A DNA stretch of 64,000 nt from Nitrospira sp. Lineage in GTDB: Bacteria; Nitrospirota; Nitrospiria; Nitrospirales; Nitrospiraceae. Both the position numbers and the translations under genes were made by a program. The stretch covers positions 3,212,737-3,276,736 of the forward strand of contig CP092081.1 of NCBI GenBank assembly GCA_022226935.1. The letters run 5' to 3'. Below are positions 1,607-7,053 of this stretch, piece by piece. Below the pieces are notes generated by a model. The model made no database searches, had not been told where the DNA came from, and saw nothing but the letters and a program-made list of their open reading frames with translations. The stretch's first letter is position 1. The number at the start of each line of letters is the position of its first letter.

Positions 1607-2104
1607 ATGGTCGACAGTGATGTATTTGTGCAGGCCCTCGAAAATCTGGGCGTCAATTTCTTCACCGGCGTGCCCGATTCCCTGCTGGGCGGCATCATCG
1701 AGGAATTGCTCACGCGCAAGCTGTACACGTCGGCCGTGCGCGAGGATGAAGCGGTCGCGATGGCGGCTGGTGCCTTCATGGCCGGAAAGATCCCTGCCGT
1801 CCTCATGCAGAACTCCGGACTCGGCACGTCGCTCAACACGCTGCTTTCACTCAATATGATCTATCGGCAACCTTGCATCCTGCTGATCTCCTGGCGGGGT
1901 TTCGAGGGCAAAGATGCTCCGGAACATCTGGTCATGGGCGAGACGATGCCGCAGTTGCTCGATACCATGAAAATTCCTCACCGCACCTTGTCGGAACAGA
2001 CGCTGGCGGACGATCTCCGATGGGTGGGCCAGACTTTCATGAAACAGCGGATTCCCGTGGCCCTCCTGATCAAGAAGGGCATCATCAAGGGGTTGCATCC
2101 ATGA
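1607..2104 (+). CDS. Phosphonopyruvate decarboxylase-like, alpha (PYR-domain) subunit
   Basis: This 165-residue protein is the N-terminal half of a thiamine diphosphate decarboxylase of the phosphonopyruvate/sulfopyruvate decarboxylase family. The conserved REDEAVAMAAGA carries the Glu that activates the cofactor, and MQNSGLGTSLNTLLSL and SWRGFEGKDAPEH are family signatures. It needs the TPP-binding partner encoded directly downstream; the stop codon overlaps that ATG (ATGA). An AGGAG lies 8 bases before the ATG. The expected reaction is phosphonopyruvate to phosphonoacetaldehyde plus CO2. Sulfopyruvate decarboxylase (ComD type) is the main alternative. The aminotransferase and cytidylyltransferase downstream favour phosphonate chemistry. 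Most bacterial Ppd enzymes are single chains, so the split is notable. Confidence 0.82.
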   Translation: MVDSDVFVQALENLGVNFFTGVPDSLLGGIIEELLTRKLYTSAVREDEAVAMAAGAFMAGKIPAVLMQNSGLGTSLNTLLSLNMIYRQPCILLISWRGFEGKDAPEHLVMGETMPQLLDTMKIPHRTLSEQTLADDLRWVGQTFMKQRIPVALLIKKGIIKGLHP

Positions 2105-2679
2105 GGCCGGAACAGGGCACGATGCAGAGCCGGGCGCAGGCAATGGCCGCGCTGCTCGAACTATTGACGGATCAGCCGGTTATCATCTGCAATGGATTTC
2201 CGTCGAGGGAAGCCCAAAAGCTTGCCGATCGGCCGACGCATTTTTATATGATTGGCTCGATGGGCAATGCCGCCGCCATTGGCTTAGGCGTGGCGCTCTC
2301 CAAACCGTCCAAGAAGGTGATCGTGTTCGACGGAGACGGCAACGTGTTGATGGGCATGGGCACACTCGCCACGGTGGGCGCCTTGCGGCCGAAGAATTTT
2401 ATCCATGTCGTGTTCGACAATGAAGTGTATGGCTCGACGGGCAATCAACCGACCATTTCCAATGTTGTCCAGTTGGAAAAAGTGGCGAAGGCGGCCGGGT
2501 ATGTGACGGTCGAGCGGGTGTTGGACCGTGAAGATCTCGTCTACGAATTCAAAGATATGTTGAAAAACGACGGACCGAGCATGTTGCTCGTCAAGGTGAA
2601 CGAGTTTGTCGAGGATGCCGGCCGGATTGCATTGGAGCCGCCGGCGATCACCGCGCGGTTCATGAAAGCCATTGAGTAA
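2101..2679 (+). CDS. Phosphonopyruvate decarboxylase-like, beta (TPP-binding) subunit
   Basis: This 192-residue protein is the C-terminal half of the thiamine diphosphate decarboxylase. GDGNVLMGMG followed by a downstream Asn in FDNEVYGSTGNQPT forms the GDG-to-N motif that binds Mg and TPP. MIGSMGNAAAIGLGVAL is typical of the family. The ATG at 2101 overlaps the alpha-subunit stop, so expression is likely coupled and 1:1. A longer upstream open frame exists but overlaps alpha almost completely and is not real. The STGNQPT segment resembles the corresponding part of Ppd. Together with alpha it is predicted to yield phosphonoacetaldehyde, the substrate for the next enzyme. Confidence 0.83.
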   Translation: MRPEQGTMQSRAQAMAALLELLTDQPVIICNGFPSREAQKLADRPTHFYMIGSMGNAAAIGLGVALSKPSKKVIVFDGDGNVLMGMGTLATVGALRPKNFIHVVFDNEVYGSTGNQPTISNVVQLEKVAKAAGYVTVERVLDREDLVYEFKDMLKNDGPSMLLVKVNEFVEDAGRIALEPPAITARFMKAIE

Positions 2680-2748: not shown

Positions 2749-3843
2749 ATGATACTTCTGAATCCAGGTCCCGTAAATGTGAGCGAGCGGGTGCGGCAGG
2801 CGTTGTTGCGTCCGGACATCTGCCATCGAGAATCCGAGTTTTCCGACATGCTGCTCCGCATCCAACAGAAGCTGCTCACCGCGTTCGTGCCCGGTGCCGA
2901 GTCCGACTACGTGGCCGTCGTTCTCACGGGGTCCGGCACGGCTGCCGTGGAATCTGCCGTCATGTCCTGCCTGCCGTTGGGCAAGCGTATGCTGGTGCTC
3001 AACAACGGGGTTTATGGCGAGCGTCTGTCCAATATGATCGGCCTGCATCGGCTCGGTGTCTCCGAACTCAAATCGGAATGGCACGTCAGGCCTGATCCTG
3101 AACGATTGCGGTTGGCCCTTCGCCAGCATCCCGAAGTACACGCGGTCTCGATGGTGCACCACGAGACGACGACCGGGTTGATCAATCCGGTGAAAGAAAT
3201 TGCGGAGGTGGTCGACAGTCTCAACCGGGTGTTTGTCCTTGACTCCGTCAGCGGTCTGGGAGGCGAACCGATCGACATTGCCGGGTCGCACATCTATATG
3301 GTGGCGGGCACGGCGGGCAAGTGCATTCAGGGCTTCCCCGGCGTGTCGTTTGTCTTGCTGCGTAAGGGATTCCTGGCCCAGATGCGCAAATATCCGAAGC
3401 GGTCCTGGTATCTGACTCTGACCCACTATGTCGATGAACAGGGTCGAGGGATTGTGCCCTTCACGCCGGCCGTGCAGGTCTACTACGCGTTTGAGGAGGC
3501 GCTGGACGAGTTGCTGGAAGAAGGGCTGGCCAACCGCTTTCAACGCTATCGGCGCGTGGCTTCGAGAATTCGCGAGCGGATGGCCGGCATGGGCGTGCAG
3601 CCGTTTCTGCCGGCCGACGTTCAATCGAATACGATTACGGCCTTTCATCTGCCGGCCGGCCTCAGCTACGCCACGTTGCATGATCAACTCAAGGCTCGCG
3701 GCTACGTCATTTATGCCGGTCAAGGGCAGCTGGAGTCGAAGATCTTCCGTATCGCGAACATGGGGGCACTCACACAGGCTCAGATCGACGGATTTCTGGG
3801 CGCGTTCGAAGAAGTGTTGGCCGGAGTGGCAGCGCGCACATGA
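2749..3843 (+). CDS. phnW: Class V aminotransferase, 2-aminoethylphosphonate--pyruvate transaminase-like
   Basis: This 364-residue PLP enzyme of fold type I begins with LNPGPVNVSERVRQALL, the usual N-terminus of the PhnW/serine-glyoxylate aminotransferase group. GSGTAAVESAV binds the cofactor phosphate, HHETTTGLINP lies in the active site, and the PLP lysine is in GTAGKCIQGFPGVSF, like the NKCIQGVPG of PhnW. In a biosynthetic setting it would aminate phosphonoacetaldehyde to 2-aminoethylphosphonate. It could equally form taurine from sulfoacetaldehyde if the decarboxylase acts on sulfopyruvate. It overlaps the next gene by four bases (ATGA). Family assignment is firm; the exact substrate is inferred. 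Confidence 0.82.
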   Translation: MILLNPGPVNVSERVRQALLRPDICHRESEFSDMLLRIQQKLLTAFVPGAESDYVAVVLTGSGTAAVESAVMSCLPLGKRMLVLNNGVYGERLSNMIGLHRLGVSELKSEWHVRPDPERLRLALRQHPEVHAVSMVHHETTTGLINPVKEIAEVVDSLNRVFVLDSVSGLGGEPIDIAGSHIYMVAGTAGKCIQGFPGVSFVLLRKGFLAQMRKYPKRSWYLTLTHYVDEQGRGIVPFTPAVQVYYAFEEALDELLEEGLANRFQRYRRVASRIRERMAGMGVQPFLPADVQSNTITAFHLPAGLSYATLHDQLKARGYVIYAGQGQLESKIFRIANMGALTQAQIDGFLGAFEEVLAGVAART

Positions 3844-4559
3844 AGGCGATTATCCTTGCGGCAGGCGTCGGCAAACGCCTCTGGCCGGTCACCCAGCATA
3901 AGCCGAAATGCTTGATCGAAATCGGCGGGCAGACCCTGTTGTCCCGCTATCTGGAATCCTTGGCGTCGGTTAAGATCAGGCAAGCCACTATCGTGGTCGG
4001 GTACAAGCAGGAGATGATCCGGGCTGCCGTGGGCTCACAGTGCCATGGGGTTGATATTTCCTATCTCGTCAACGAGGAGTTTCATCGCGGCAGTATTTCG
4101 TCGTTATGGATCGCCAGGCAGGCGTTGACCGACGATGTGGTCGTCATGGATGCAGACGTGTTGTTTCATCGGGAAATTCTTCGGCGTCTAGTGGCGTCGC
4201 CCTATGAAAACTGTCTGCTCATGGACGACACGGTAAAGCAAACGGGCGAAGAGTGTATGGTGGTCGTGCAGGGCGACCGCGTTATCGCCTTAAGCAAGAA
4301 GGTGCCCGATCGGTACGACCTCGCCGGCGAAGGTGTGGGGTTTCTGAGGGTGCGCCGGGCCGATACGGCGCATGTGATCGCCTCCCTCAAGGGGTACATC
4401 GATCAAGACCGTTGGGATATGGAATACGAAGACGGATTGTTGCAGTATTTCCGTGACGTTAAAGTGGGCCACGAGAAAATCGGAGGACTGCCCTGGACCG
4501 AAATCGACTTTCCTGAAGATGTCACGAAGGCGGAGCGGGAAGTGTTGCCACGACTATAG
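3840..4559 (+). CDS. Cytidylyltransferase of the phosphocholine/phosphonate (LicC/PntC) type
   Basis: This 239-residue nucleotidyltransferase has an intact N-terminal loop LAAGVGKRLWPVTQHKPKC with the substrate/NTP Lys and Arg, and a metal-binding VVMDADVLF. The C-terminal WTEIDFPEDVTKAE is characteristic of enzymes that form CDP-choline or CMP-aminoethylphosphonate. The start ATG overlaps the transaminase stop. After a transaminase that makes an aminoalkyl acid, the likely reaction is CTP plus 2-aminoethylphosphonate giving CMP-2-aminoethylphosphonate. CDP-choline or CDP-ethanolamine formation is the alternative. It can supply the nucleotidyl transfer that the neighbouring fusion protein seems unable to do. 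Confidence 0.82.
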   Translation: MKAIILAAGVGKRLWPVTQHKPKCLIEIGGQTLLSRYLESLASVKIRQATIVVGYKQEMIRAAVGSQCHGVDISYLVNEEFHRGSISSLWIARQALTDDVVVMDADVLFHREILRRLVASPYENCLLMDDTVKQTGEECMVVVQGDRVIALSKKVPDRYDLAGEGVGFLRVRRADTAHVIASLKGYIDQDRWDMEYEDGLLQYFRDVKVGHEKIGGLPWTEIDFPEDVTKAEREVLPRL

Positions 4560-4610: not shown

Positions 4611-6065
4611 ATGAGTGAAAGTACCCTACAACGAGGCGCGGAACTACAGGGATTGAGCACGGCCATCCTCTTGCCGGGATCCTGTCTCTTCGCTGATCGT
4701 CCCGGTCGCGGCCTCGCCGAGGTCGGCCCCTTGACCCACATCGGAGGGTTGAGCCTCTTCCAGCGGACCGTCCTCACCTTGCAACGAGGCGGCATCCGCC
4801 AATTGATCGTGCTGGCCGGTCCCGATGAGGAGTTGCTCAAGCAGGCATTGGCGCGTGGAGCCCGTGTGACGATTCCGGTCCGATGGATGCCGGTACGGGA
4901 ATTCCCGCTCGACGATCCGCGCACCTGGGAATCCCTGGCCGCGGAGGTTCGCGGCTTCTGTCTTGTGGCGGGCGTCCAGGCGGTATTCTCCAAGGGACTG
5001 ATCGAACATTTGCGGCAGACCGTGCGCGACGGCGAGGCGTTGGTGGTCACGCGTGAAGCGGGTCCGGTGGAATCTTCGGCTGGACGTCGGAACCCGGTGG
5101 TCGCCTTGCAGGAAGGGCGGCTGATTTCCTTCCACAATCAGCCCGGCCAGCAAGGACATCAGATTGCGGCCGACCTGGTGGTGTTGCCCGCCAGTATTTT
5201 GAACCCGCCCAACGGCGCGGCTGCGGATTCGGCGAGCGGCGTCGCGGAAGCCCCCGGAATGACGCCCATGCGTCGCTGGTTGGAACGGGCCGCTCTCGAA
5301 GGTCGGGTGCGGGTCGTAGCCGCCGCATCGCACGCCGGACTCTGGTATCGCGACGTGTGGGATCAGGCCAGTGCGAGCCACGCGGAGCGCACGTTGTTCC
5401 GTTCGCTGAAAGGCGACGCCGAAGGATTCGTCGATCGGTATTTCAACCGGACTTTTTCGCGGCTGTTGACGCGTTTCTTTCTCCAATTGAAGTGCTCCCC
5501 AAACACCATCACGATGGTGGCGACCGCTGTCGGGTTCCTCTCCGCCGTCGGATTCGGTCTAGGGACCTATACGGCAGGCATCGTGGCTGCGCTGTTGTTT
5601 CAGCTGGCCGCCATCATCGACTGCTGCGATGGCGAAGTCGCGCGTCTCACCTTTACGGAGTCCCCCTTCGGCGCGTGGCTGGATATTGCCATGGACAATG
5701 TGGTGCATATCGCCATCTTCGCCGGGATTGCCTGCGGGTCCTATGTTCGCCATGCCGAGACGGGCGAGGCCTGGATCCCGTTGGCCCTCGGCGGCGCGGC
5801 CGTGTTCGGCAATGCCATGGCGTTCTGGTTGGTCACGAAGGCCCAAAAAATCGGTGCGACGCGGGGATGGAATACGCCCAAGCAGGCAGCCTGGTCCGAC
5901 TTCATCCTCAAGAATGTGGCGAGCCGTGACTTCTCCGTGGTCGTCTTCCTGTTCGCCATTTTGGATAAACTGGATTGGTTTCTGTGGATGGCTGCCCTCG
6001 GTTCGACCGTCTTCTGGCTGATGATGGTGTGGGTGATTCGACCTTCGGCACGGGCCCGTGCTTAA
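4611..6065 (+). CDS. Fusion: degenerate nucleotidyltransferase domain plus CDP-alcohol phosphatidyltransferase
   Basis: This 484-residue protein has the domain order of archaeal inositol-1-phosphate cytidylyltransferase/DIPP synthase. Residues 1-235 are a nucleotidyltransferase-like fold that keeps PLTHIGGLSLFQRTV but lacks the GxGxR loop, and has VAGVQAVF where the metal-binding Asp normally sits. Residues about 260-480 are a membrane CDP-alcohol phosphotransferase with the full motif DG-x2-AR-x8-G-x3-D-x3-D (DGEVARLTF ... GAWLDIAMD) and several membrane helices. The C-terminal domain should transfer a head group from a CMP-activated donor to an alcohol acceptor, probably a lipid. The last bases overlap the next gene's GTG. 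Donor and acceptor are inferred from context. Confidence 0.8.
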   Translation: MSESTLQRGAELQGLSTAILLPGSCLFADRPGRGLAEVGPLTHIGGLSLFQRTVLTLQRGGIRQLIVLAGPDEELLKQALARGARVTIPVRWMPVREFPLDDPRTWESLAAEVRGFCLVAGVQAVFSKGLIEHLRQTVRDGEALVVTREAGPVESSAGRRNPVVALQEGRLISFHNQPGQQGHQIAADLVVLPASILNPPNGAAADSASGVAEAPGMTPMRRWLERAALEGRVRVVAAASHAGLWYRDVWDQASASHAERTLFRSLKGDAEGFVDRYFNRTFSRLLTRFFLQLKCSPNTITMVATAVGFLSAVGFGLGTYTAGIVAALLFQLAAIIDCCDGEVARLTFTESPFGAWLDIAMDNVVHIAIFAGIACGSYVRHAETGEAWIPLALGGAAVFGNAMAFWLVTKAQKIGATRGWNTPKQAAWSDFILKNVASRDFSVVVFLFAILDKLDWFLWMAALGSTVFWLMMVWVIRPSARARA

Positions 6066-7053
6066 AGCGGCCCTCCTTGTCCTCGGGGCGCTGACACTTT
6101 CGGCACTGGTCTGGCACATCGGCATCGGGCGTATTTACGAGGCGGTGACGCAGCTCGGTCCTGTTGCCATGGTGCTGGTCCTTCTTCCCTCCCTCCTCAT
6201 GTATGTGCTCGAAGCCTATGGCTGGCGCGTGACACTCGGCGCCTGGGCCAATGGTGTCCCGTTTTGGCGCATCTTAGCGATCCGCACCGCCGGCGAAGTC
6301 GTGAACATGACCACGCCCACCGCCTATGTGGGAGGCGAACCGCTCAAGGCCTACCTCCTCAGTCGACAGGGCGTGCCGCTCGTGGAGGGCCTCGCGTCGG
6401 TCGTGACGGCCAAAACCACCATGACCGTCGCGCAGATCCTGTTCATTCTTGCGGGGATCGGCCTGGGATTCTGGTTATTGGGTTCCGGCGGATCGGCTGG
6501 ACAGACGATCACCGCAGGGTTGGTCAGCGTCGGCCTTTTGCTGTTCGGGGTCGGCGCCTTCGTCATCGTCCAGCGGCACGGCATGTTTTCGTGGATTCTG
6601 AACCAGCTGCGGCGCATCGGTCTGCGCATCCAGTTTTTGGAAGCACGCGAACAACAGCTGATCGAACTGGATCGCACCATCGCCGGCTTCTATTCCCACC
6701 AGCGGCAGGCCTTCCTGCTGTCGACGGGACTGTTTCTGCTCGGGTGGCTGGCCGAGGCGCTAGAGGTCTATGTCATGGTGGTCTGCATGGGACAATCCAT
6801 CGCTGTCTTGCCGGCTGTCGCGATTGGAGCGCTATCCGTCTTTATCAAAGGAGGGACATTTTTCATTCCCGGCAGCTTGGGTGCGCAGGATGCCGGCAAT
6901 CTGCTTCTGCTTTCTGCGTTCGGGTATGGTGAGGTGACGGGTATCACCTTCGCGCTTTTGCGGCGGTTTCGAGAATTCGTCTGGATCGCCGTAGGGCTGG
7001 GATGTCTGGCGATGATGAGCAAAGGCGCCGATCCTTCCCTTCCGCAGAAATAA
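6058..7053 (+). CDS. Flippase-like integral membrane protein (LPG synthase TM / UPF0104 family)
   Basis: This 331-residue protein has about eight hydrophobic helices and family segments such as AIRTAGEVVNMTTPTAYVGG near residue 80 and GGTFFIPGSLGAQDAGNL near 265. It starts at GTG 6058, eight bases before the end of the preceding gene, so the two are translationally coupled. Members of this family are predicted lipid or lipid-linked transporters, or lack a proven role. Coupling to a CDP-alcohol phosphotransferase suggests it handles that enzyme's lipid product, for example by moving it across the membrane. The last point is inference. Confidence 0.8.
   Translation: MLKAALLVLGALTLSALVWHIGIGRIYEAVTQLGPVAMVLVLLPSLLMYVLEAYGWRVTLGAWANGVPFWRILAIRTAGEVVNMTTPTAYVGGEPLKAYLLSRQGVPLVEGLASVVTAKTTMTVAQILFILAGIGLGFWLLGSGGSAGQTITAGLVSVGLLLFGVGAFVIVQRHGMFSWILNQLRRIGLRIQFLEAREQQLIELDRTIAGFYSHQRQAFLLSTGLFLLGWLAEALEVYVMVVCMGQSIAVLPAVAIGALSVFIKGGTFFIPGSLGAQDAGNLLLLSAFGYGEVTGITFALLRRFREFVWIAVGLGCLAMMSKGADPSLPQK

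Follow-up and report, generated by a model that had tools for sequence, protein, structure and literature searches.

Among the closest described counterparts of the gene studied here is the IPCT-DIPPS of Archaeoglobus fulgidus (4mnd), in which an intact nucleotidyltransferase (NTase) domain is followed by a CDP-alcohol phosphotransferase (CDP-AP) domain. In AF2299 (4o6m/4o6n/4q7c), the N-terminal domain is not known to be active. As described in PMC4634129, AF2299 also combines a CDP-AP with a cytosolic cytidylyltransferase-like domain, and the donor in its crystal is CDP-glycerol; according to PMC8633023, the substrate pocket of AF2299 and DIPPS is partly covered by the cytosolic domain. The pairing of a dead NTase-fold protein with an active partner has a precedent in GMPPA, a paralogue of GMPPB without catalysis, for which binding of GDP-mannose and interaction with GMPPB are described (PMC11228364), but it is a separate protein with no membrane transferase fused to it. 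The activation of 2-aminoethylphosphonate (AEP) as CMP-AEP is described for Treponema denticola PntC-AEPT (6pd1/6pd2; Rice et al. 2019, PMC6697681), which carries no fused CDP-AP, and in the same paper the tailoring after C-P bond formation is called enigmatic. A gene cluster of Nostoc and Burkholderia is given as phosphonolipid synthesis in PMC5987646 (after Yu et al. 2013); there, as in Roseomonas and Mycetohabitans, genes for CDP-AP, NTase, PEP mutase (PepM), phosphonopyruvate decarboxylase (Ppd), AEPT and an HpnL-like protein are found together. AEP-phosphonolipid gene clusters are already published, and in the two examined, Roseomonas and Mycetohabitans, the transferase is short (200-230 amino acids, without an N-terminal domain) and Ppd is one protein. 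The presence of pepM in Nitrospirota from a lake has also been reported (PMC10734540). No paper on the Nitrospira operon described below was found in the literature searched.

The window, a stretch of 64,000 nucleotides from a Nitrospira genome (4.23 Mb, one contig), contains a set of closely packed genes, all on the + strand. The genes ppdA (1607..2104) and ppdB (2101..2679) are predicted to encode the TPP N-terminal half (alpha subunit) and the TPP C-terminal half (beta subunit) of phosphonopyruvate decarboxylase, the former from TIGR03297, PF02776 and the gene order in relatives, the latter from TIGR03846, TIGR03297 and PF02775. The TIGR03297 score of ppdA, 128 bits, is under the cut-off of 312.5, which is set for the undivided enzyme, and ppdB scores higher with the sulfopyruvate decarboxylase beta model TIGR03846 (189 bits, cut-off 221.5) than with TIGR03297 (176 bits, cut-off 312.5). 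The assignment of both to phosphonopyruvate rather than sulfopyruvate was made because of the neighbouring genes. Next is aepT (2749..3843; putative AEP aminotransferase), with 349.9 bits for TIGR03301 PhnW-AepZ, slightly below the cut-off of 360.8. It overlaps pntC (3840..4559), the two genes whose counterparts are fused in T. denticola, and the fusion gene FUS (4611-6065; an open reading frame of 484 amino acids) overlaps in turn the gene for an LPG_synthase_TM/HpnL-like membrane protein (6058..7053), a putative flippase (PF03706, 111 bits; TIGR03476, 152 bits against a cut-off of 195.65). The operon differs from the Roseomonas and Mycetohabitans clusters in its split Ppd, in the dead NTase domain carried by the CDP-AP, and in that pepM may be located away from it. 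Divergently upstream of ppdA, two paralogous, probably secreted proteins without a Pfam match are encoded (377-919 and 920-1471, - strand), and one or two homologues are present at the same place in most related loci.

An earlier note on this DNA had described an intact stand-alone cytidylyltransferase directly upstream of the fusion gene, and the pntC product indeed has both the loop AAGVGKR...KPK, within AAGVGKRLWPVTQHKPK, and DAD. By its family matches it is an NTP transferase, and its best PDB match was 6pd1 (PntC-AEPT; E 1.5e-13), followed by LicC 1jyk (2.2e-12). The fourth residue of the loop is K, where the consensus GXG(T/S)RX4-8PK given in PMC6697681 has T/S. Judged by these sequence features, the product is probably a CTP:AEP cytidylyltransferase.

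FUS itself had been described in that note as a phosphotransferase fused to an NTase domain in the order of archaeal IPCT/DIPPS, with a complete C-terminal CDP-alcohol motif, and both statements hold. The C-terminal CDP-AP domain (5409..6062, residues 267-484) matches PF01066 CDP-OH_P_transf with 38 bits (cut-off 22), the sole Pfam match on FUS, and the motif D..DG..AR(8)G...D...D is complete in all 102 homologues. This domain would transfer from a CMP-linked donor to an alcohol. The N-terminal NTase-fold domain (4611..5408, about residues 13-266) is supported by an AlphaFold2 model, Foldseek and VIA-align, profile comparison and residue columns; the Pfam search detected no NTase domain in it, while the same library detected NTase models in two intact relatives (L056 and L106). 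In the AlphaFold2 model of FUS (pLDDT 77.5, pTM 0.68), an NTase fold stands ahead of a helical membrane domain with about six transmembrane helices. The alignment with the Archaeoglobus bifunctional enzyme, proposed in the earlier note together with structure prediction, showed a shared two-domain fold: 4mnd was the best Foldseek match (E 1.5e-17, TM 0.67/0.78), and VIA-align placed 396 residues on it (Z 25.4, rmsd 3.7). Both domains also align with AF2299 (4o6m; Z 26.4, rmsd 4.1, 322 aligned), the N-terminal domain of which is shorter, and residues 14..270 align with PntC (6pd1; Z 20.2, rmsd 3.2, 225 aligned). By profile comparison, the N-terminal domain matches intact IPCT-type domains with a probability of 97.5% (E 5.4e-12) and PntC with 83.8% (E 7.9e-6). 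Since the profile is closer to IPCT-type domains than to PntC, the domain was most likely passed down as one half of an ancestral bifunctional enzyme rather than acquired by capture of a PntC.

In domain order, whole fold and CDP-AP motif, FUS is thus alike to the Archaeoglobus IPCT-DIPPS, but its NTase half lacks GxGxR, the PK lysine and the metal Asp. The loss was followed in 102 sequences: that of the window, 25 from further genomes, and those of 76 named loci out of 80, the partial loci L138, L162, L174 and L175 having been left out. Along the alignment columns, in which one row was gapped at the loop, neither Gly nor the Arg of GxGxR is kept in any of the 102 FUS homologues, the PK lysine is likewise kept in none, and the first metal Asp (MGDH) is kept in a single one (L194). 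All of these residues are kept in the seven intact comparison enzymes from other Nitrospirota. A shift of the catalytic residues to other positions was considered and rejected, as GxGxR is absent from the first 60 residues of all 102 homologues. At the second, C-terminal Asp column (WxD), 55 of the 102 have D and 15 have E, so that some ancestral acidic residues remain. The earlier statements that GxGxR and the metal Asp are missing, and that the domain appears catalytically dead, are supported by these counts.

Loss of these residues has not released the domain from selection. Identity and dN/dS were determined for the window and 42 of the 80 named loci, 43 rows in all, giving 176 usable of 903 pairs. 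The median dN/dS was 0.136 for the N-terminal and 0.089 for the C-terminal domain, the former exceeding the latter in 93% of the usable pairs. The dead domain is under purifying selection, and the median of 0.136 leads us to reject a decaying pseudo-domain: it looks dead yet is maintained (median about 0.14). The domain has a new conserved block, residues 85-122 (4863..4976; RVTIPVRWMPVREFPLDDPRTWESLAAEVRGFCLVAGV), with a mean identity of 0.89 in the 43 sequences as against 0.73 for the whole N-terminal domain and 0.82 for the C-terminal domain. This block, which differs from the conserved block of the Archaeoglobus enzyme, aligns where live enzymes have the NPxW..GNAxS stretch, and its signature RWxPxxExP is found in 100 of 102 FUS homologues and in none of the seven intact enzymes.

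The window's genome has relatives in Nitrospira, including Ca. N. defluvii and N. moscoviensis, and the best 80 of 174 relatives are labelled Nitrospira, Nitrospiraceae, Nitrospirae or Nitrospirota, except one labelled Nitrosospira. A tblastn search of plasmids with FUS gave three records, none covering 80% of the query. The order ppdA-ppdB-aepT-pntC-FUS is found in 72 of 75 Nitrospira-group loci with at least 3.3 kb upstream (exceptions L140, L149 and L197), FUS adjoins the flippase gene in all 72 with at least 1.2 kb downstream, and the order is the same in other families of the taxonomic order. An intact PntC is encoded next to, or fused with, the transferase in nearly all loci. One genome (G200) has, besides its intact copy, a second, fragmented FUS copy (C1:1226241-1227543). 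Three Nitrospirota genomes encode a second CDP-AP family with another degenerate NTase-like N-terminal domain, on a separate branch of the tree (L091:8954-10159, L092:2626-3816, L093:8032-9171). On a Sphingomonas taxi plasmid, in surroundings resembling an exopolysaccharide cluster, a CDP-AP has yet another N-terminal domain without NTase motifs (L207:5596-6804).

Co-occurrence was examined in 295 Nitrospirota genomes. The 106 with a match were divided by kinship and match coverage into 95 with FUS orthologues and 11 others, the latter comprising seven with an intact NTase, one (G174) with a different degenerate N-terminal domain, and G122, G289 and G293; the 95 include three genomes with a PntC fusion as well as G282, and the residue-level reading covers part of them. 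A PEP-mutase-like NTase fusion was detected in 92 of the 95 FUS-positive genomes and in one of the 200 others. That one is G174, where a PF01066 protein, PepM-NTase, ppdA and ppdB lie side by side. The FUS-positive genomes without it are G212, G232 and G282. In G282, an incomplete draft, FUS ends ahead of the catalytic motif, and neither PntC nor PepM-NTase was found; these losses are coherent, with the reservation that the draft state imposes. In G133 the dead half is retained and pntC adjoins PepM-NTase instead.

The PepM of the window's own genome is canonical, with EDKLFPKTNS in agreement with the EDKxxxxxNS signature (L006), and its gene is unlinked, about 1.87 Mb from the operon. Another PEP-mutase-like NTase fusion was also observed, in which EDNxxPKxCS takes the place of the EDKxxxxxNS signature (L047:2705-4366, - strand; L044-L048, L186 and others), and in many relatives this EDN-type PepM-NTase lies divergently upstream of the operon. 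Reading of the motif covered 26 loci of the EDK and 32 of the EDN kind, a number of them being overlapping stretches of one genome. By the best match per genome, the EDK kind occurs in 69 and the EDN kind in 24 of the 295 genomes, both together in none, which suggests that they replace each other. The EDN-type domain is closer to two annotated phosphonopyruvate hydrolases (46-47% identical over 284-290 residues) than to the fusions of the EDK type in Roseomonas and Mycetohabitans (35-38% over the whole protein). A phosphonopyruvate hydrolase was nevertheless rejected as an identity for the EDN type, since the two annotated hydrolases have EDKTFPKxTS, not EDN..CS. The EDN kind would escape a filter for EDKxxxxxNS such as that described in PMC6697681. 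In the NTase domains fused to PepM, the Arg of GxGxR is lacking but the PK lysine is kept (AASRGEEL...PK in L006:643-2280 and AAGFEKHL...PK in L047:2705-4366, both - strand); thus, among the three NTase-fold domains of the pathway, the full loop is confined to the stand-alone PntC.

In three genomes (G173, G199 and G276), the PntC reading frame continues directly into the CDP-AP domain, and of the dead domain a short linker remnant is all that is left. The fused PntC is 56-61% identical to that of the window and keeps GRGRR...PK and DADVLF, and no second PntC was found in these genomes. An assembly artefact is unlikely, as the fusion is present in three genomes and the identity among the fused proteins is no higher than 87-89%. 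In the tree of the C-terminal domain, the three lie inside the FUS group, next to a congener with separate pntC and FUS (L049), so that the fusion arose most simply by deletion of the dead half. The natural fusion links PntC and the transferase functionally. The dead domain is dispensable once PntC is tethered; that tethering is the domain's own job does not follow. When PntC and FUS were modelled as one read-through chain, the model was poor (pLDDT 59.7, pTM 0.41).

Architecture, fold, residue loss, operon order, PepM co-occurrence, purifying selection and the natural fusion were all obtained by computation, and they allow a pathway to be proposed. PEP mutase, encoded elsewhere in the genome, would make phosphonopyruvate, PpdA/PpdB and AepT would convert it to AEP, and PntC would activate AEP to CMP-AEP. 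The CDP-AP domain of FUS would then pass the AEP group of CMP-AEP to a membrane alcohol, and handling or flipping of the product may fall to the HpnL-like protein. A transferase role of FUS in the AEP pathway is likely; the substrate, the acceptor, the direction of flipping and any binding of PntC are what we infer. The N-terminal half would descend from an IPCT-like cytidylyltransferase that lost catalysis, and would persist as a cytosolic platform above the transferase, where it most likely holds PntC or its product close to the active site. Such a platform is the reading that agrees best with the new conserved block and the natural swap. Taken together, FUS is probably a membrane transferase that ends a phosphonolipid-type AEP pathway, its dead, IPCT-derived half being kept as a platform. 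The earlier note had suggested that the domain became a scaffold or sensor while activity moved to a separate protein. Its scaffold idea gains from the three PntC-transferase fusions without the dead domain; that an inositol cytidylyltransferase activity "moved" is not supported, since the upstream enzyme is PntC-like, not IPCT, and inositol-1-phosphate synthase (PF01658) has no match in the genome (the control was positive in 6 of 14). The fused enzyme was therefore probably recruited to another pathway.

Concerning the acceptor, it is quite conceivable, if short of probable, that AEP is transferred to a membrane alcohol other than diacylglycerol, for instance a hopanoid or a glycan carrier. 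The putative flippase is HpnL-like, the window's genome has a squalene-hopene cyclase gene, and hopanoid genes lie beside the cluster of Roseomonas. As described in PMC4634129, three or four additional transmembrane helices are present in eukaryotic CDP-APs that act on bulky lipid acceptors, and set against these the six or so in the FUS model render a bulky lipid acceptor uncertain. Glycosyltransferase and wzx-like genes follow downstream in the window and its closest relatives, but they are not conserved beyond those relatives, and the related cluster in PMC5987646 has been read in print as a phosphonolipid one.

The dead domain might instead be a structural lid or folding aid left from an IPCT-DIPPS-like ancestor and unconnected with PntC, which we consider rather doubtful. 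The cytosolic domain of AF2299 described in PMC4634129, which the NTase profile barely matches, offers a parallel, and the degenerate NTase-like N-terminal domains elsewhere come without a PntC match in the stretch analysed (L091-L093) or among the annotated neighbours (Sphingomonas). However, conservation of the new block equals that of the catalytic half, seemingly beyond the needs of a lid, and what replaces the dead domain in three genomes is PntC itself, not nothing. Less probable still is that the domain binds a ligand and so regulates PntC or the transferase, in the manner of GMPPA towards GMPPB: the GMPPA/GMPPB complex is among the fold matches (Z 19.9, rmsd 3.1, 224 aligned), tied with many NTases, and the nucleotide-phosphate-holding residues are lost from the FUS domain.

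That the domain is still an active nucleotidyltransferase with non-canonical residues is hardly credible, for the D or E in the second Asp column of 70 of the 102 homologues and the first Asp of L194 are outweighed by the general loss of GxGxR and the PK lysine and by the intact PntC beside or within nearly every transferase locus. An inositol enzyme, DIPP synthase or kin, was rejected with equal firmness on the absence of a PF01658 match and the AEP genes all around FUS, even though 4mnd is the best Foldseek match and the Thermococcales IPCT/DIPPS model NF041135 gives the best NCBIfam score, 92.8 bits against a cut-off of 580.

For the platform reading, a wider history may be sketched, which we offer tentatively and expect to be wrong in part or in whole sooner than right. 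A bifunctional activating and transferring enzyme would have split: its own activating domain lost function and was remodelled into a platform on which a different, newly recruited activator, PntC, docks, with CMP-AEP handed directly to the transferase, and one sub-lineage deleted the platform and welded PntC on. On the same tentative footing, AEP lipids would be made by nearly all nitrite oxidisers of the Nitrospira type, in some cases through the PEP mutase variant EDNxxPKxCS, which breaks the accepted signature. The operon proposes a transferase and a candidate coupling of activator and transferase, for which the natural domain swap provides an experiment already set up. Should the product exist, carbon-phosphorus membrane molecules would be present in much of the Nitrospiraceae, central nitrite oxidisers included, with consequences for phosphorus cycling.
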